The notes beneath the pieces are model-generated. The model worked only from the letters and a program-made list of their open reading frames with translations. It was not told the DNA's origin and ran no database searches. Both the position numbers and the translations under genes were made by a program. From contig NZ_JACHWJ010000002.1 of NCBI RefSeq assembly GCF_014191305.1, positions 496,001 to 560,000 of the forward strand: 64,000 nucleotides of DNA, written 5' to 3'. Shown here one piece after another: positions 27,712-36,677 of the stretch (its first letter is position 1; each line of letters begins with the position of its first letter). This DNA is from Pseudoclavibacter helvolus. GTDB taxonomy: Bacteria > Actinomycetota > Actinomycetes > Actinomycetales > Microbacteriaceae.

Positions 27712-27807
27712 GCGCGTCAGGGTATGGGCTGACCCCGTTTGGTAGGTCCGGTGGTTGTGTGAGTCGTCCTGTTGCCCGGGGGTCCGGGCAGTGAGACTGG
27801 TCAGATC

Positions 27808-28092
27808 ATGACGAACAGCAGGAAGCGTCACACCTCGGAGCAGGTCGTCCGTAAGCTCGGGCAGGCCGACAGGATGCTCGCGGGCGGTAGCGACATCGCC
27901 GGGGTGTGTCGAGAGCTCGGAGTGTCCGAGCAGACGTACTACCGGTGGCGGAACCAGTACGGCGGGCTGAAGGCCGACGACGCGAAGCGGCTGAAGGAGC
28001 TCGAGAAGCAGAACGCCACGCTCAAGCGGCTGCTCGCCGAGGCAGAGCTCGAGAAGGCCGCGCTCAAGGAGCTGGCTGAGGGAAACTTCTAG
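27808..28092 (+). CDS. IS3-family transposase orfA
   Basis: 94 residues. An HTH (HTSEQVVRKLGQADRMLAGGSDIAGVCRELGVSEQTYYRWRNQYGG) is followed by a leucine-zipper coiled coil (RLKELEKQNATLKRLLAEAELEKAALKELAEG). This is the IS51/IS407-like orfA type. A -1 frameshift near its end would join it to the second frame. Confidence 0.92.
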   Translation: MTNSRKRHTSEQVVRKLGQADRMLAGGSDIAGVCRELGVSEQTYYRWRNQYGGLKADDAKRLKELEKQNATLKRLLAEAELEKAALKELAEGNF

Positions 28093-28142
28093 GCCCGGGC
28101 AGGCGCCGCGCCGCCGTCGACCACCTCAAGCGCAAGCTGCGG

Positions 28143-28958
28143 GTGAGCGAACGAATGGCGTGCCGTCTGGCCGGGCTGAGCAGGTCCGCATACCGTCGCC
28201 CGCTCCAGGGTGAGACGACAGCCGACCCGGACCTGGCGTTGCGGGACTGGCTGCGGGCGTATGCGAAGAAGCACCCGCGGTGGGGATACCGCAGGGCCTA
28301 CCACGATGCCCGCGGCGAGGGGTGGGTCGTGAACCACAAGAAGATCCAACGGCTCTGGCGCGAGGAAGGGCTGCGCGTCCCGCAGCGGCGTCGCCGCAAA
28401 CGCGTTGGGTCTTCGACCGTCGACGCCCCGGCAGCGGTCGCACCGAACCTCGTGTGGGCGGTGGACTTCCAGTTCGACGCGGACGAGCAGGGCCGTCCGA
28501 TCAAGATCTGCTCCATCGTCGACGAGCACACCCGCGAGTGCATCGGCGGGCTCGTCGAACGGTCGATCACCGCGGACCGGCTCACCGCCCACCTCGAGGA
28601 CCTCGTCGCCGTCCGCGGCGCCCCCGCGGTGCTCCGATCCGACAACGGCCACGAGTTCATCAGCGACGCGATGGCCGACTGGGCCGGCACCCGCACCGGC
28701 CTGTTCTACATCCCGCCCGGCTCGCCCTGGCACAACGGGTACGTCGAGTCGTTCAACAGCAGGCTCCGCGACGAGTGCCTGAACATCAACAGCTTCTACT
28801 CGCTGCTCCACGCCCAGGTCGTGATCGGCGACTGGAAGACCGAATACAACCACGACCGCCGGCATTCATCGCTCGGCTACCTCGCACCCGTCGACTACGC
28901 TCGGCAATGCACCCATCAATCGGAAACCGACGACTCGCACAGCGACCGGACCGAATGA
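28143..28958 (+). CDS. IS3-family transposase orfB
   Basis: 271 residues from a GTG. In the same frame, residues RRRAAVDHLKRKLR lie upstream, so the natural product is probably the orfA-orfB fusion. The rve integrase core has Asp in WAVDFQFDADEQGRP, Asp in VLRSDNGHEFIS and Glu in SRLRDECLN, completing DDE. HTREC and GSPWHNGYVESFN are family features. From codon 105 onward the sequence is repeated exactly at 34181-34685. Confidence 0.92.
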   Translation: MSERMACRLAGLSRSAYRRPLQGETTADPDLALRDWLRAYAKKHPRWGYRRAYHDARGEGWVVNHKKIQRLWREEGLRVPQRRRRKRVGSSTVDAPAAVAPNLVWAVDFQFDADEQGRPIKICSIVDEHTRECIGGLVERSITADRLTAHLEDLVAVRGAPAVLRSDNGHEFISDAMADWAGTRTGLFYIPPGSPWHNGYVESFNSRLRDECLNINSFYSLLHAQVVIGDWKTEYNHDRRHSSLGYLAPVDYARQCTHQSETDDSHSDRTE

Positions 28959-28972
28959 AGGGGGCGGCCCAG
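28454..28972 (+). repeat. 519-bp direct repeat, copy 1 (3' half of the IS3 element)
   Basis: Identical over its whole length, as far as I can read in all frames, to 34181-34699 (constant offset 5727). It begins at GTGGGCGGTGG and ends at GGCCCAG. The two copies define a 5727-bp unit. Confidence 0.93.
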
Positions 28973-29248
28973 CCTCCCCCGGCATCTCGGGGGAACGTTC
29001 ACAGTGTTCTCACGCGAAGGGACGCTGCTGCACGACGCGGAGAAGAGGTGCCAGGCCGCCCCGCAACACCGCGCGGGTCCCAGGATCACCGAGAGGCTGC
29101 CGCCGAATTCGATGGCCGGGCCGAGTGATTCGACCCATGAGGGCGCCGGTCCCGGACTCACCCCCGAGGGGCGGAGCCGACATGCGGCGACGGCGCCACC
29201 CTCGCAAGGGTGACGCGTCGCTCGGCCGGGCTCGGCGATGCAGGCCCG
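28973..29248. other. Non-coding stretch after the IS3 element
   Basis: I see no convincing gene here. The reading frames that cross it lack start sites and family likeness. It is the left inner flank of the IS3-bracketed segment. Confidence 0.5.
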
Positions 29249-29289
29249 CCACAGGTGGGCGTGGTGGTGATGGCCACGCCCACCTGTGG
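29249..29289 (-). terminator. Perfect 16-bp hairpin after the Thr/Pro-rich protein gene
   Basis: CCACAGGTGGGCGTGG (29249-29264) pairs with CCACGCCCACCTGTGG (29274-29289) around nine bases. It sits 5 bp beyond the stop of the minus-strand gene at 29294, as a terminator would. Confidence 0.65.
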
Positions 29290-29293
29290 TCGC

Positions 29294-29830
29294 TCAGGAA
29301 CGGGCGAAGAACATCTGGTTGACGGACTTGTTCGCACCCCAGGCGGAGGTGGGGCGGGAGCCCTTGCCGAGCTCCCACGCGATCGTCACCGAGCGACCAC
29401 GCGTGATGGAACGCAGGCGCGAACCGGTGTGCACGTCACCCACACGCGAGGACGTCTTGGCGTTGATCACGGCCATGACCTGCGCCTTGCTCGCGTCGGC
29501 GGGCACCCGCACCGTCACGAACTGCCAGTTGTTCGCGCCCCAGAGGGCGCGGTCCTCGCGGTAACGCAGCACGCCGTCGTCGTCGAGGCGCGCCGCGACC
29601 CGGGCCTGAGCCGCGGTCTTGGGCATGTACCGGTCCACCTGGAAGGTGCGCTGCACCGCCTTCACTGCGGGGACGCTCGGACGGGTCGTCGGGCGCGTGG
29701 TGGGCGTGGTCGTGGGGCGCGTCGTCGGCGCGGGCACCGTAGTCGCGGGCGACGAGGGCCGCGGCGTGATCGCCGGGACCGAGGTCGTCGGCGCCGGGCT
29801 CGTCGGCCGGGGGGCCGTCGTCGGGTACAC
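29294..29830 (-). CDS. Thr/Pro-rich protein of unknown function, probably lacking its N-terminus
   Basis: 178 residues from a GTG at 29830. The first 55 are a Thr/Pro linker (TTAPRPTSPAPTTS, TTRPTTTPTTRPTTRP) of the kind that joins exported domains to a signal peptide or membrane anchor. A compact domain of about 120 residues follows (AVQRTFQVDRYMPKTAAQARV, LWGANNWQFVTVRV, NAKTSSRVGDVHTGSRLRSI, ending GANKSVNQMFFARS). No signal peptide precedes it: the frame is open upstream only to a stop at 29902, without an ATG. Either the start has been lost or a frameshift separates it. The domain is not one I recognise. It belongs to the IS-bracketed segment. Confidence 0.55.
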   Translation of the reverse strand: MYPTTAPRPTSPAPTTSVPAITPRPSSPATTVPAPTTRPTTTPTTRPTTRPSVPAVKAVQRTFQVDRYMPKTAAQARVAARLDDDGVLRYREDRALWGANNWQFVTVRVPADASKAQVMAVINAKTSSRVGDVHTGSRLRSITRGRSVTIAWELGKGSRPTSAWGANKSVNQMFFARS

Positions 29831-30133
29831 GCAGCACCGGAGCGGGGACGCCGTTTCTCCATGTGATGTCCCGTGTCGCCTGTCTGATCGACCCCGGCCT
29901 CACCTTCCTTAGCCGCGATGCCGAGGCCTGGTCCACGTTCTGCGGGCCGTCCGGGCGTGGACGGGCACGCCCGGCGCCGGCACAGAGCGTCCGAAGTGCC
30001 ACGGGGCGGGCCGGCAGGCATGATCCGGGCGGGACGCGGCCCCGTTACCTTCTTCATACCCAGTTCGGGGAGTGATCCTTGGAGGGTGTTGGCCATCCCG
30101 GGCTCGGCATGACTCTGTGCTGGGCTGCCGCTA
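29831..30133. other. Region without a clear gene
   Basis: GC-rich DNA between the Thr/Pro-rich gene and the second IS3 element. I see no ORF with family likeness, no tRNA and no perfect repeat. It may hold the lost 5' part of the Thr/Pro-rich gene in damaged form. Confidence 0.4.
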
Positions 30134-30193
30134 TGTTCTCGGACAGTAGCTCCCCGGTAAATTGGGTAGGGAAGTCGCCGGGAGGGGCAATTC

Positions 30194-30481
30194 ATGTCTC
30201 GTAGAAGATTTACGCAGGAATTTAAGGACGAGCTCTGTCAGGAGGTGATCGCGTCGTCGAAACCGATCAAGGACGTTGCAGCGTCGTATGGTGTGGGCGC
30301 GGAGACTCTCCGGAATTGGCTCGCGAAGTATCGGGCGGACAACCCGGTCACGGAACTCCCTGTGAGTGGATCGGAGCGAGAGCGACTCCGTGAGCTCGAG
30401 AAGGAAGTCCTGGAGCTACGGGCGGAGACCGCGTTCCTGAAAAGAGCTACGGCTTACTTCGCGCGGGAGCAGCGGTGGTGA
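30194..30481 (+). CDS. IS3-family transposase orfA (second element)
   Basis: 95 residues: HTH SRRRFTQEFKDELCQEVI, IKDVAASYGVGAETLRNWLAKYR, then the coiled coil RERLRELEKEVLELRAETAFLKRA. A GGAGGGG ribosome site precedes the ATG. It overlaps orfB by seven bases, as is normal for programmed frameshifting. Confidence 0.92.
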   Translation: MSRRRFTQEFKDELCQEVIASSKPIKDVAASYGVGAETLRNWLAKYRADNPVTELPVSGSERERLRELEKEVLELRAETAFLKRATAYFAREQRW

Positions 30482-31362
30482 GCAAGTATGAATACATTGA
30501 CTCCCTGACCATTGACGCGAGTGTTAATCATTCCGTCACGAAAATGTGCGCTTGGCTTGGTGTTTCGAAATCTGGTTTCTATTCCTGGAGGGACCCGACG
30601 CCAACTCGCACGCAGGAGCGACGAGACGCACTTGTCGAGAAGATCACAATGTTCTTCGAAGCGTCGGACGGGACGTATGGGTATCGGCGAATTCACGCTG
30701 ACCTTGCCGAGGCTGGCACGCACTGTTCCCCGGAGCTCGTTCGCCGCCTGATGGCTGAGCACAAGCTTGTGGCCTGCCAGCCTCGACCGTTCCGAGTCAC
30801 GACAACCACGGATGGCGAGGAGCATGCCCTCCCGGATCTCGTCGAGCGCGACTTCACGGCCACCCGACCGGGTCGGAAATTCGTCGGCGATATCACCTAC
30901 ATTCACACCTGGCAGGGTTTCGTGTATCTCGCGACCGTCATCGATTGCTATTCAAAGAAAGTCGTTGGGTGGGCCATTGAGGACCACATGCGGACCGAGT
31001 TGATCGAGCAGGCGCTCAGAAATGCCGCCGAGAGCACACCGATTGAGGAGGGCGCTGTGTTCCATTCCGATCGCGGAAGTGTCTACACGTCCAGCGATTT
31101 TCGGAAGTCGGTGAAAGATCTCGGAATGCGTTCCTCGATGGGGCGAACTGGTGTATGTTGGGATAACGCGATGGCCGAATCATTCTTCGCTGCCTTGAAA
31201 AATGAGCGAGTGTATCGGACGACGTATCCGAGCAAGAAGCATGCTCGGAAGGATATCGTTCGCTATATCGAGGGGTTCTATAACAGTCGGCGTCGCCATT
31301 CGGGGTTAGGGTATCAAACGCCGAATCAGGTCCATCACGGGCCACTCACGTTGGCAGCATAA
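30475..31362 (+). CDS. IS3-family transposase orfB (second element)
   Basis: 295 residues. HTH_21 region (GTYGYRRIHADLAEAGTHCSP) is followed by the rve core: Asp in FVGDITYIHTWQGF, Asp in VFHSDRGSVYTS and Glu in NAMAESFFAALKNE, with the usual RRRHSGLGYQTPNQV tail. The frame is intact, so the element could be active. Confidence 0.93.
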   Translation: MVSKYEYIDSLTIDASVNHSVTKMCAWLGVSKSGFYSWRDPTPTRTQERRDALVEKITMFFEASDGTYGYRRIHADLAEAGTHCSPELVRRLMAEHKLVACQPRPFRVTTTTDGEEHALPDLVERDFTATRPGRKFVGDITYIHTWQGFVYLATVIDCYSKKVVGWAIEDHMRTELIEQALRNAAESTPIEEGAVFHSDRGSVYTSSDFRKSVKDLGMRSSMGRTGVCWDNAMAESFFAALKNERVYRTTYPSKKHARKDIVRYIEGFYNSRRRHSGLGYQTPNQVHHGPLTLAA

Positions 31363-31399
31363 AAGTCATCGCATTCAGGCTGGGGACAGTCCGAAAACA

Positions 31400-31595
31400 T
31401 CGCGGCAGACCATGCCCCCTGTCGCTGTTCATGATCTGGGGGGTGTTGTCACCGAGTCCCGGTTTGGCGGCTTGTGATCGCTGATAGGGACAGGGCCCGG
31501 ACGTGTTCCGAGTGTCGTTCGTAACGTGGATGTCGAGACTCGCCGCTTCTTGGTTCGGCCAACGCTGGAACCGAAATTTGAGAGGGGAAGGGCTG
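31400..31595 (+). ncRNA. Candidate bridge-RNA region of the IS110 element
   Basis: This non-coding stretch lies 5' of the transposase. In IS110-group elements the 5' non-coding end is known to encode a structured bridge RNA that selects target and donor DNA. Short GC-rich complementary runs are visible here (for example CCCCC near 31414 and GGGGG near 31436). The assignment rests on position, not on a folded model. Confidence 0.3.
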
Positions 31596-32804
31596 ATGGA
31601 AACAAGCATCACCGGACACGACAGCGTCGACGTGTTCATCGGTGTCGATGTCGGCAAAGGCGAGCATCACGCGGTCGCGATCGACCGCACGGGGAAGAAA
31701 CTCTTCGACAAAGCGCTGCCCAACGACGAGAGCAAACTCCGCGCGCTCATCGATGGGTTGAAGGACCACGGGACGCTACTGTTCGTCGTCGATCAGCCTG
31801 CCACGATCGGCGCGCTGCCGATTGCGGTCGCGCAAGCCGCGGGAGTCCTCGTCGGCTACCTGCCGGGGCTCGCGATGCGCCGCATCGCGGACCTCCACGC
31901 GGGCGAAGCGAAAACCGACGCGAGAGACGCGGCCATCATCGCGGAATCCGCCCGGACCCTCCCGCACGCCCTCCGATCGATCCAGCTCGCGGACGAGCAG
32001 GTCGCGGAACTCTCGATGCTCTGCGGCTTCGATGACGACCTCGCGGGACAAGTGACCGCGACGAGCAACCGCATCCGCGGCCTGCTCACGCAGATTCACC
32101 CCGCGCTCGAACGAGTCCTTGGCCCGCACCTCGATCACAAGGCCGTCGTTGATCTCCTCCAGCGTCACCCCGCGCCCGCGGATCTCGCGAAGCTCGGCCC
32201 GACACGGCTAGCCAACCGACTCGTAAAGCTCGCTCCCCGCATGGGCAAACGCCTCGCGGCCGAGATCATGCAGGCGCTCTCCGAGCAGACGGTCGTGGTC
32301 GTCGGCACGAACGCTGCCAGCCTCGTCCTGCCGCGCCTCGCGAAACAACTCGAAGACCTCCGCACCCAACGGGCCGAGATCGCGGTCGAGGTTGAACGGC
32401 TCGTCGATGCGCACCCTCTTCACCCGGTCTTGACGAGCATGCCAGGAGTCGGCGTCAGGACCGCAGCGAGACTCCTCACCGAAGTCGCCGGGAAACAGTT
32501 CGCGACCGCAGGTCACCTCGCGTCCTACGCCGGACTCGCGCCCGTCACGCGACGCTCCGGCTCTTCCATCCGGGGCGAGCACGCCTCCCGACGCGGGAAC
32601 AAGATCCTGAAACGGACTCTGTTCCTCTCCGCGTTCGCGGCACTGAAAGACCCCGTCTCGCGCACCTACTACGACCGGAAACGCGCGCAAGGCAAACGCC
32701 ACAACCAAGCCCTCATCGCACTCGCCAGACGACGCTGCGACGTCCTCTACGCAATGCTCCGAGACGGCACCATCTACCAAACCCCGACACCCCAAAACCC
32801 TTGA
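31596..32804 (+). CDS. IS110-family transposase
   Basis: 402 residues, the normal family length, from the ATG at 31596 preceded by GAGAGGGGAAGGG. The N-terminal RuvC-like DEDD domain begins DVFIGVDVGKGEHHAVAID and has KTDARDAAIIAE. The C-terminal Transposase_20 domain has LTSMPGVGVRTAARLL and the conserved serine region RRSGSSIRGEHASRRGNK. These enzymes recombine DNA with a RuvC-like site and a catalytic serine. The frame is intact. Confidence 0.95.
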   Translation: METSITGHDSVDVFIGVDVGKGEHHAVAIDRTGKKLFDKALPNDESKLRALIDGLKDHGTLLFVVDQPATIGALPIAVAQAAGVLVGYLPGLAMRRIADLHAGEAKTDARDAAIIAESARTLPHALRSIQLADEQVAELSMLCGFDDDLAGQVTATSNRIRGLLTQIHPALERVLGPHLDHKAVVDLLQRHPAPADLAKLGPTRLANRLVKLAPRMGKRLAAEIMQALSEQTVVVVGTNAASLVLPRLAKQLEDLRTQRAEIAVEVERLVDAHPLHPVLTSMPGVGVRTAARLLTEVAGKQFATAGHLASYAGLAPVTRRSGSSIRGEHASRRGNKILKRTLFLSAFAALKDPVSRTYYDRKRAQGKRHNQALIALARRRCDVLYAMLRDGTIYQTPTPQNP

Positions 32805-33039
32805 CAAAACCATAGGGACACCCCCCCCACCGGGGGTGACCCTGCCGGGACGCCGGGTCCGGACCCGGTCACGCGGCTCTCGGGACGGGCTGGGCGCGTA
32901 CCTGCCGCTCTCAGCGCCCGCGACAGGGAGTTCCGCGAGTGGGCGACGGAGGTCGGGGGCCGGACATCCCGTTGTCGGCAGGTACGGTAGGGTCATACCG
33001 TCGAGCTCCCCGCCCGAGGGGCATGACGAGGAGGTCAGC

Positions 33040-33984
33040 ATGGCTCTGCGCGAACTCGAGTTCACGTCGCACAACGGCACCGACACCATCCAGGCCTGGG
33101 TGTACGAACCGGCGGTCACGCCGGTGGCGGTGGTCCAGCTCATCCACGGTCTCGGCGAGCACTCCCGCCGGTACCTGCACGTGACGGCCGCGCTAGTGGA
33201 TGCGGGGTTCGTCGTGGTCGCGGACGATCACGCGGGTCACGGTCGGACGGCGATGCAGTCGGGGACGTGGGGTGACGCCGGTGACGAGTCGGCGACGGTC
33301 ATCGTGCAGGACGAGGTGACGCTGTACCGGAAGGCCAAGGAGCTGTTCCCCGACCTGCCGTACGTGGTGTTCGGCCACAGCCTGGGGTCGATGATCGCGC
33401 GGGCGCTGGTGCTGCAGCCGGGTGTCGAGGTCGACGGGCTCGCGCTGGGCGGTATCGCCGTGGGCATGCGCGGTGTCGAGTCGACGCTGGATCGCGAGGC
33501 CCTGAAGGCTGCCGTGGCGGCCGACGGTTCCGCCCCCGCTGCGGATGCGTTGGTGGGCCAGCTGTTCGACGGCTTCTACGACCGCCTCGGCCCGGACTTC
33601 GGCCCGACGGACTGGGTGGCGCGCAACGCGGACGTCGTCCGTGATCACGGCCGCGACCCCTTCAACAACTTCGGCGCCCCCTTGAGCAACCGGTTCCTGC
33701 AGGGCTTCGTCGACGTGTACGACCAGGCCAACGGCGACGACTTCTTCGACCGCCCTCCGCAGGTTCCCGTCGCGATCTTCGCGGGCGCGGAGGACCCGGT
33801 GACCAACTACGGCGAGGGTGCGCGCGAGGTCGCCCGGCGCCTGGAGGAGAAGGGCCACGACGTCGAACTCCACATCTACCCCGACGTCCGCCACGAGGTT
33901 CACAACGAGCCCGAGACCCGCGCCGAGATGGAGAACTCCCTCATCGAGTTCGTCCACCGCGCCGCCGGGCGGGACGACGCCTGA
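33040..33984 (+). CDS. Alpha/beta hydrolase, monoacylglycerol-lipase-like
   Basis: 314 residues. The catalytic triad is recognisable: nucleophile Ser in VVFGHSLGSMIAR, Asp in IFAGAEDPVTNYG and His in YPDVRHEVHNEPE. VVQLIHGLGEHSRRYLHVTAAL supplies the oxyanion-hole HG motif. This is the Hydrolase_4 pattern of monoglyceride lipases and lysophospholipases; the substrate is not predictable. The ATG follows GAGGAGG. No signal peptide, so cytoplasmic. It is the one metabolic gene in the IS-bracketed segment, with its own terminator at 34025. Confidence 0.9.
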   Translation: MALRELEFTSHNGTDTIQAWVYEPAVTPVAVVQLIHGLGEHSRRYLHVTAALVDAGFVVVADDHAGHGRTAMQSGTWGDAGDESATVIVQDEVTLYRKAKELFPDLPYVVFGHSLGSMIARALVLQPGVEVDGLALGGIAVGMRGVESTLDREALKAAVAADGSAPAADALVGQLFDGFYDRLGPDFGPTDWVARNADVVRDHGRDPFNNFGAPLSNRFLQGFVDVYDQANGDDFFDRPPQVPVAIFAGAEDPVTNYGEGAREVARRLEEKGHDVELHIYPDVRHEVHNEPETRAEMENSLIEFVHRAAGRDDA

Positions 33985-34024
33985 CCCCCGAGGCGCACCC
34001 GGCCGCTCGCGCCCAAGCACCGTG

Positions 34025-34066
34025 ACGGGGCCCTGCCGTGAGGATCGTCTCTCGGCAGGGCCCCGT
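34025..34066 (+). terminator. Strong terminator after the hydrolase gene
   Basis: ACGGGGCCCTGCCG (34025-34038) pairs with CGGCAGGGCCCCGT (34053-34066), a perfect 14-bp stem with a 14-base loop, 40 bp beyond the stop at 33984. Confidence 0.75.
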
Positions 34067-34081
34067 CGGTGATGTGAGGTC

Positions 34082-34180
34082 TCAGGCCATGACGGGACGC
34101 ACGCGTCGCCCAGCGAGGGGCTCGTCCATGGTGACCTCGCGAAGCGGAGGATGTCGCCGGTGGCGCAGCGAGGGCGAGAG
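34082..34180 (-). other. Possible C-terminal remnant of a minus-strand gene
   Basis: A frame ending VTMDEPLAGRRVRPVMA and a stop at 34082 is open rightward until it meets the truncated IS3 copy at 34181. It converges on the hydrolase terminator, as a real gene end would. It is too short to identify and may be chance. Confidence 0.25.
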
Positions 34181-34685
34181 GTGGGCGGTGGACTTCCAGT
34201 TCGACGCGGACGAGCAGGGCCGTCCGATCAAGATCTGCTCCATCGTCGACGAGCACACCCGCGAGTGCATCGGCGGGCTCGTCGAACGGTCGATCACCGC
34301 GGACCGGCTCACCGCCCACCTCGAGGACCTCGTCGCCGTCCGCGGCGCCCCCGCGGTGCTCCGATCCGACAACGGCCACGAGTTCATCAGCGACGCGATG
34401 GCCGACTGGGCCGGCACCCGCACCGGCCTGTTCTACATCCCGCCCGGCTCGCCCTGGCACAACGGGTACGTCGAGTCGTTCAACAGCAGGCTCCGCGACG
34501 AGTGCCTGAACATCAACAGCTTCTACTCGCTGCTCCACGCCCAGGTCGTGATCGGCGACTGGAAGACCGAATACAACCACGACCGCCGGCATTCATCGCT
34601 CGGCTACCTCGCACCCGTCGACTACGCTCGGCAATGCACCCATCAATCGGAAACCGACGACTCGCACAGCGACCGGACCGAATGA
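34181..34685 (+). pseudogene. Truncated IS3-family transposase orfB
   Basis: The last 166 or so residues of the orfB at 28143, from WAVDFQFDADEQGRP to the stop, joined upstream to unrelated sequence. orfA, the left end and the first part of orfB are missing. The right end of the element is intact and is followed by GGTA, the duplication expected for the full copy at 27725. Confidence 0.92.
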
Positions 34686-34699
34686 AGGGGGCGGCCCAG
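34181..34699 (+). repeat. 519-bp direct repeat, copy 2
   Basis: Matches 28454-28972 without a difference I can detect. It stops at the right end of the IS (GGCCCAG), after which the flanks differ. Confidence 0.93.
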
Positions 34700-34770
34700 G
34701 TACGCCGACGCTCTGCGAGCGACAAGCGAGTCTGCCTTCGGGAGCTGGGCTGGGCGCGACCACGCCCACA

Positions 34771-34850
34771 TGTCCAACTTGCGTGATGAACGCGTGGTCT
34801 CGGGGCCACCCGCTGCACCAACTGCCGTCTGAACACGGAAGTTGGTCAGC
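34771..34850 (+). repeat. 80-bp paired-end intergenic element, copy A
   Basis: Begins TGTCCAACTTGCGTGATGAA and ends ACGGAAGTTGGTCAGC. CCAACTT and AAGTTGG are inverted repeats at the two ends. Copy B at 48895 has the same length and end sequences but a different middle. It lies 31 bp beyond the treZ stop. Confidence 0.7.
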
Positions 34851-34880
34851 GGTGGCCGCGGGAACCCGCCGCCCGCCGAG

Positions 34881-36677
34881 TCAGGCGCGGGTGACCCGGA
34901 TGACGGCGGCGCTCTGCGCGGGGAGGCTCAGTGGCACGAGCGGGGTGCCGACGGGCGCACCGGTTGTGGTGCCAGTGGTCTTGCCGAGGGCGACGCGTGC
35001 ATCCGTCGCGAACAGCACCTCGGTGGCGTGCCTGACCGGCAGCTGGCGCTCGTCCGACGAGAAGTTCACGGCGACGACGAGGCTACCTCGCGTGATGACA
35101 AGCGTGCCGTCCTCCGCGGAGACGTCGACGGTGCTCGCGTCGAGCCATGGCGTCGTGATGTCCGCCTCGCGACTGCGGAGCGCGATGAGCTCGCGGTAGA
35201 TCTCGAGGAGCCTCGCGTGCTCTGGCTTGTCGAGCTCGCTCCAGTCGAGTTTCGAGCGGTTGAAGGTCTCCACGTCCTGAGGGTTCGGGACGACGGCCGC
35301 ATCCCAACCCATGCGCGCGAACTCGCCGATGCGTCCCTCGGTTGTCGCCTTCGCAAGCTCGGGCTCCGGGTGCGAGGAGAAGAACTGGAAGGGCGTTGTC
35401 GCACCCCACTCCTCGCCCATGAAGAGCATCGGAGTGAAGGGCGAGGTGAGTTCGAGGGTCGCGGCGATGGCGAGCTGGCCTGGTGAGAGGGATGCCGTGA
35501 GGCGGTCGCCGATGGCGCGGTTGCCGATCTGGTCGTGGTTCTGCGACGACACGACGAGCCGCCAGGCCCGGGTCTGCGCCGGGAGCGGACGCCCGTGGTG
35601 GCGGCCGCGGAACGTGGAGAGCGTGCCGTCGTGGAAGAAGCCCTTCGTGAGCACCTTCGCGAGTGCGTCGAGGCCCGCGAAGTCGCCGTAGTAGCCGCTC
35701 GTCTCGCCGGTTAGGTTGACGTGGACGGCGTGGTGGAAGTCGTCGGACCACTGCGCGTCGAGCCCGTAGCCGCCAGCCTCGTCAGAGGTGATGAGGCGCG
35801 GGTTGTTGAGGTCTGACTCCGCGATCAGGGTCAGCGGCCTGCCGACGTGCGCCTCGAGTTCGTCGACGTCGCGCGCGAACTCCTCGAGGATGTGCACGGC
35901 CCGGTCGTCCACGAGGGCATGCACGGCGTCGAGTCGGAGCCCGTCGACGTGGAAGTCGCGCAGCCACATGGCCACGTTGTCGCGCAGGTAGGCACGCACC
36001 TCGTCGGAGTTCTCGCCGTCGAGGTTGACGGTGTCGCCCCAGGCAGTGGCGTGGTGGTCCGAGAGGTACGGGCCGAACTTGCCGAGGTAGTTGCCGGAAG
36101 GTCCGAGGTGGTTGTAGACGACGTCCTGGATCACGCCGATGCCGCGCTCGTGGCACGCGTCGACGAAGCGCTGGTAGGCGGCAGGCCCGCCGTAGCCTTC
36201 GTGGACGGCGAACCAGTCGACGCCGTCGTAGCCCCAGCCGTGCGTGCCGCTGAACGCGTTGACGGGCATGACCTCGACGAAGTCGACGCCGAGCTCCTGC
36301 AGGTGGCCGAGGCGGTCGATGGCCGAGTCGAGGGTGCCTTCGGGAGTGAACGTGCCGATGTGCACCTCGATGATGACCGAGCCGGCGAGCGGCCTGCCCG
36401 TCCAGTCGCCGTCCACCCACGAGTGCCTTGCCGGGTCGAACGTGCGCGAGAGACCGTGCACGCCCTCCGGCTGCCAGCGGGAGCGGGGGTCTGGGACGGG
36501 GGTCGAGTCGTCGTTGATGAGGTACCCGTAGTCGTGGGTTGTCTCATCGAGCTCGAGCGCCGCATCCGGAACCCACCAGTCGCCGTCGGTGCTCCGCATC
36601 GGCACCTGAGTGCCGTCGAGGAGCAGGGTCAGCGTCTCGGCGTGGGGTGCCCAGACGTCGAAGCGGGAATCGCGCAC
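34881..36677 (-). CDS. treZ: Malto-oligosyltrehalose trehalohydrolase
   Basis: 598 residues of GH13. It starts with a GTG at 36677 chosen because AAGGAG lies six bases upstream. The N-terminal domain reads [17 protein letters not shown]. Catalytic regions are [26 protein letters not shown] and [17 protein letters not shown]. The motif [17 protein letters not shown] is typical of TreZ. It cuts the bond next to the terminal trehalose in maltooligosyl-trehalose and frees trehalose. Last gene of treX-treY-treZ, 46 bp after treY. Confidence 0.95.

Follow-up and report, generated by a model that had tools for sequence, protein, structure and literature searches.

Positions 27725–34698 of a 64,000-nucleotide stretch of the Pseudoclavibacter helvolus genome (contig NZ_JACHWJ010000002.1, positions 496,001 to 560,000; hereafter the window) are, at a probability that we put at roughly 0.8, a composite transposon of an IS3-family insertion sequence (IS), with GGTA as its 4-bp target duplication. 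The cargo is bounded by two ends of the same IS, namely the left tip of an intact copy (27725) and the right tip of a truncated copy (34698), which are also the outer limits of the whole insertion. The unit has the ends and flanking 4-bp repeats of a composite transposon; its site is empty in relatives, closely similar units are present in other hosts, and further insertions within it are nested in a definite order. The original prediction for this DNA had been that a 5727-bp circle entered a resident IS by a single crossover. The empty sites uphold one part of that claim, namely the insertion of foreign DNA that includes an IS3-family element. The crossover is not favoured; the prediction did not consider a simpler reading, in which GGTA flanks the outer tips of the two IS copies of a composite transposon. 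The features that define the unit are as follows.

27721–27724: GGTA, left copy of the target duplication (exact 4-base overlap of the flank alignments in relatives L035 and L036; empty-site alignment)
27725–28971, + strand: intact IS3-family element, source of the transposase and of the left inverted repeat (ends and flanks; Pfam HTH_Tnp_1 and rve; pCE7 annotation)
27772–28092, + strand: orfA of the IS (open reading frame (ORF); Pfam HTH_Tnp_1), with a GGGAAAC run near its end (28080–28086) that we take to resemble a −1 frameshift (slippery) site
28143–28958, + strand: orfB of the IS, with a DDE integrase domain (ORF; Pfam rve and rve_3), in frame −1 relative to orfA by ORF coordinates
34181–34698, + strand: 5'-truncated copy of the intact IS, giving the right inverted repeat (identity; junctions in relatives)
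34699–34702: GGTA, right copy of the target duplication (the same overlap in L035 and L036; empty-site alignment)

A search with the right flank of the insertion (34703–36000) covered 60 genomes, among them that of the window, and from it the regions of the four best same-genus hits (L034–L037) were taken for comparison. Alignment of the joined window flanks with these regions showed the site to be uninterrupted in all four. In L035 and L036 the alignments of the two flanks overlap by exactly 4 bases, GGTA; the letters at the empty site are GGTA in L035, L036, and L037 and GCTA in L034. A single GGTA joining the side with the DUF2277 gene to the other side, named treZ in the original prediction, is therefore found in three of them, as had been expected of an empty relative. 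The duplication encloses the whole unit and neither IS alone, GGTA lying outside both copies and GCCT on the inner side of the intact one, as had been noted at the outset. Irrespective of mechanism, the uninterrupted sites mean that 27725–34698 constitutes a single insertion that duplicated 4 bp of its target. A 4-base match alone has a chance of about 1 in 256, and a chance origin of the GGTA match was rejected, as the precise empty sites in the relatives make it very unlikely. None of the four relatives, all from the same genus but not from the species of the window, carries an IS at the site. The stretch just to the right of the insertion (34703–34880) is weakly conserved, and about 0.8 kb of other DNA is found there in two genomes (G004 and G001).

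The intact IS begins with TGGGCTGACCCC and ends with GGGGGCGGCCCA, with GGTA at its left and GCCT at its right. Its orfA and orfB, with HTH and DDE integrase domains and with orfB in the −1 frame, are features of the IS3 family and its IS407 group, in which a 4-bp target duplication is the group rule. The counterpart on plasmid pCE7 of Kocuria indica is 98% identical and is annotated there as ISAar43 family, as one transposase; one report places ISAar43 in the IS3 family, IS407 group (PMC5644110). The intact copy is an IS407-group member of the IS3 family, the name ISAar43 coming from the pCE7 annotation and not from an ISfinder entry.

The truncated copy corresponds to IS positions 730–1247 and is followed by GGTA. 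The two copies and their constant offset of 5727 were borne out by coordinates and alignment, and base-by-base comparison gave 0 mismatches in 518 bases; the earlier count of 519 shared bases adds one coincident G in both right flanks. Elsewhere in the 12 contigs of the genome, the IS has a single match, a full copy of 87% identity that lies on contig C1 with ACTG on both sides. Target duplication by this IS was surveyed by scanning 27 loci, which gave 17 distinct full-length copies with both tips aligned; copies not aligned to both tips were left out, among them the C1 copy and that of L085, whose flanks differ. Solitary full-length copies of this IS and its relatives have a 4-bp duplication in 8 of 13 cases and none in the other 5. 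The remaining 4 surveyed copies are the left IS of composite units, and none of these has a duplication of its own.

A protein search of the genome_contigs collection with the hydrolase encoded in the cargo returned 19 loci, 12 of them at 30–64% identity and seven at 99%. The latter are in Microbacterium schleiferi (L098), a Leucobacter metagenome-assembled genome (MAG; L099), a Micrococcus MAG (L100), Nesterenkonia massiliensis (L101), Microbacterium lacticum (L102), Kocuria marina (L103), and Microbacteriaceae bacterium PS02066 (L113), and the hydrolase is thus 99% identical in other genera. Plasmid pCE7 (L117) is an eighth carrier, at about 99% DNA identity. The parts of the cargo, apart from its nested insertions, are listed here.

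28972–30043: cargo, left part, with copies of about 99% identity in other hosts (BLAST, whole or in part, to L098, L101, L103, L113, and L117)
29249–29289: hairpin with a 16-nt perfect inverted repeat, probably the terminator of the Thr/Pro-rich gene
29294–29830, − strand: gene for a Thr/Pro-rich protein (ORF; copies in relatives)
33040–33984, + strand: gene for an alpha/beta hydrolase of 314 amino acids, monoacylglycerol-lipase-like (Pfam Hydrolase_4; PDB 6khk; relatives)
34024–34067: hairpin with a 19-nt inverted repeat, 95% complementary, probably the terminator of the hydrolase gene

A full left IS with GCCT as its inner flank is present in three of the eight records (M. schleiferi, N. massiliensis, and pCE7), and an IS remnant that starts at IS position 1034 follows the cargo at one common right junction in five, these three together with the Leucobacter MAG, where the remnant stops short of the right tip, and K. 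marina. Left IS, cargo, and right remnant therefore occur together in M. schleiferi, N. massiliensis, and pCE7. The outer flanks are GAGG/GAGG in M. schleiferi and, across scaffold gaps, GGGT/GGGT in N. massiliensis. Counting the window, matching 4-bp flanks enclose three of four units, which by simple arithmetic would arise by chance about once in a million. It is very unlikely, in view of these records, that the window unit was created by the assembler through merging of a cargo molecule from elsewhere, such as a plasmid, into a chromosomal IS via the 518-bp repeat. An assembly in 12 contigs leaves room for such an error, but no leftover IS fragment exists, since the copy on C1 and the pair in the window account for all three matches in the genome, and a similarly built unit is gap-free in M. 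schleiferi and in the complete plasmid pCE7.

Among 398 genomes of the family (E up to 1e-30), the hydrolase was found only in the window genome and as one match at 65%, and among 396 genomes of the order (E up to 1e-200) only in the window genome; both sets are samples of larger groups and missed carriers of the kind found in genome_contigs. Viral contigs gave no match to the window junction and none to the common junction.

Several observations weigh against a composite transposon. On pCE7, the outer flanks are GTGT/GGCC, with no repeat. The evidence from N. massiliensis is weaker, the right tip lying past scaffold gaps and interposed sequence. For the M. schleiferi unit, the left flank matched 50 of the 398 family genomes, and in the 12 of those 50 that were compared the right flank matched none, so that no empty site was seen there. 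The right IS copy is 518 bp in the window, as against a 214-bp remnant in other hosts. The cargo is found without this IS beside it in the Micrococcus MAG, M. lacticum, and strain PS02066; the first of these records starts within the cargo at a contig end. Finally, the end structure would be no different had a circle integrated into a resident IS.

The last of these points bears on the proposal that a solitary IS first stood at GGTA and was then joined by a 5727-bp circle carrying a 5'-truncated IS along with the cargo, either through homologous crossover or through a translocatable-unit reaction directed by the transposase. This would give exactly the structure observed, with two IS copies identical across 518 bp, and recombination between the 518-bp repeats could in turn release a 5727-bp circle. 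A precedent is provided by Burkholderia thailandensis, in which an IS2-like (IS3-family) circle is described as inserting beside a resident IS (PMC6350997). On pCE7, the right flank of the unit, GGCC, recurs to the left of a different IS copy, a pattern that IS–IS recombination could leave. We nevertheless consider the proposal unlikely. Near-identical IS DNA would have had to arrive twice, whereas the other copy in the genome is just 87% identical; no IS is present at the site in any of the four relatives aligned; of nine other members of the genus, only one has full-length copies of this IS, at 90–92%, with fragments in one more; and closely similar units have 4-bp repeats of their own in two other hosts. 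As the host genome contains no other near-identical IS, nothing points to a resident IS as the landing place.

The cargo copies that lack an adjacent IS are the sole support for a further proposal, that the cargo is native to this locus and was lost in the relatives, with GGTA arising by chance. All four relatives aligned are contiguous across the site, and copies of the cargo in different genera are about 99% identical. In the nine other members of the genus, of which one genome is 83% complete, the two cargo stretches had no more than short matches, and a native cargo was rejected as wholly improbable.

Under the composite-transposon reading, the transposase of the intact IS would act on its own left end and on the distant right end held by the remnant, probably by way of the circular copy-out-paste-in intermediate described for the IS3 family. 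The unit would have come from another actinobacterium, perhaps on a plasmid; it entered beside the DUF2277 gene with duplication of GGTA. In the window lineage, an IS110-family element entered the cargo, and a second IS3-family element the IS110.

Because of its longer right IS copy, the window unit cannot simply be equated with the units elsewhere; those of M. schleiferi, N. massiliensis, and pCE7, with their different flanks, all have a shorter right remnant. In the other hosts, the cargo extends about 47 bases further, to GAGAGC, before joining IS position 1034, whereas the window cargo, ending at GAGAGG, is joined to IS position 730, which immediately precedes an internal TGGGC. This pentamer is the tip sequence of the inverted repeat and occurs on the forward strand at IS positions 1, 731, and 956. 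The right IS copy has been remodelled in the window lineage. The change would be accounted for by a second insertion, or a deletion product, that afterwards recombined with the old remnant. A random break exactly at the internal TGGGC is unlikely but possible. It is distinctly less probable than the integration of a circle in general that a transposase-directed circle of this IS407-group element joined a resident IS and that the truncated copy arose through the internal TGGGC as a surrogate left end.

Two further elements occupy the cargo, one within the other.

30044–30120, + strand: IS110-family element, left non-coding end, to the left of the nested IS (contiguous with 31413–32826 in four other copies in the same genome)
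30121–31412, + strand: second IS3-family element, inside the IS110 (TGC at 30118–30120 and 31413–31415; Pfam; 3-base overlap in uninterrupted IS110 copies)
31413–32822, + strand: remainder of the IS110-family element, with its transposase at 31596–32804 (Pfam DEDD_Tnp_IS110 and Transposase_20; genome copies)

The IS3 and IS110 listed for the cargo in the original prediction do not lie side by side, the former sitting inside the latter. Four further IS110 copies in the genome are continuous across the nested-IS point, with the 3-base overlap TGC, and 30044–32822 is absent from all six of the other cargo copies with an alignment on each side of it (L098, L099, L101, L103, L113, and L117), with the sequence itself read for L103 and L117. 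The exact right end of the IS110 is ambiguous, as it lies in a run of C. The order of events is the unit into the genome site (or before), the IS110 into the cargo, and the second IS3-family element into the IS110; the IS110 may have entered the cargo either before or after the unit reached the window site. The left end of IS110 elements encodes a guide (bridge) RNA. The window copy, with its left non-coding end split by the second IS3-family element, may be disabled. An IS110-like insertion, 77% identical, is found at another point of the cargo in M. schleiferi.

The unit can be compared with three better-known systems. In Tn6330, the ISApl1-mcr-1 transposon, the cargo likewise lies between direct copies of one IS, and loss of one IS copy is common (PMC5821093); the window unit differs in its IS3-family element, its 4-bp duplication, a right IS reduced to its right end, and the absence of a resistance gene by Pfam. 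In B. thailandensis, an IS2-like 210-kb composite element and a translocatable circle of IS plus cargo are described, and there too IS3-family copies bound a unit and a circle of IS and cargo can form. That circle inserted next to a resident IS with no new 5-bp duplication and with complete IS genes at both ends (PMC6350997), unlike the window unit, which has a duplication around the whole and a remnant as its right IS. The IS26 translocatable unit (IS6 family, according to PMC6350997) leaves an identical arrangement once it has inserted next to a resident copy, but the transposase here is of a different family and no resident near-identical IS was found.

The window unit seems to be one more case of a familiar type of transposon, mechanistically ordinary and not a new mechanism. 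Literature searches, which included ISAar43 and composite transposons of these genera, found no description of it, which is not proof of absence. Of interest are the carriage of a lipase-like hydrolase among actinobacterial genera by an IS3-family element, at about 99% DNA identity, and a locus at which three nested insertions can be placed in relative order. Confirmation would bring an IS407-group case to the composite transposons and would suggest that a remnant retaining the right end alone can suffice alongside one intact IS.

With regard to the cargo genes, the hydrolase matches PDB 6khk with 447 bits across residues 1–311 of 314, monoacylglycerol lipases standing lower in the match list. 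The Thr/Pro-rich protein has no Pfam match, and pCE7 is annotated with a shorter hypothetical protein at this gene. The corresponding region of strain PS02066 (7037–7787 of L113) has an internal stop in frame, and the protein is therefore not whole in every carrier. A Pfam scan of the cargo proteins revealed no replication or transfer domain and no resistance gene, the first of these in agreement with the original prediction.

The cargo end and the IS copies also vary among the other carriers. To the right of GAGAGC, the Micrococcus MAG and M. lacticum share one context and strain PS02066 has another, which with the IS remnant makes three; three contexts from the same cargo end suggest a recurrent breakpoint. 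On pCE7 (1215–2461 and 11934), the right flank GGCC of the unit is identical to the left flank of another IS copy, whose own flanks differ, and IS–IS recombination is possible there; identity along the pCE7 IS copies, considered as a sign of mosaic exchange that might account for the missing duplication, is patchy and not decisive. In K. marina (6716–9401 of L103), the cargo and right IS remnant, without the left IS, interrupt a gene that, from its peptide, is presumably PfpI-like, and a short piece of this gene seems to have been lost, as an adjacent deletion would leave.

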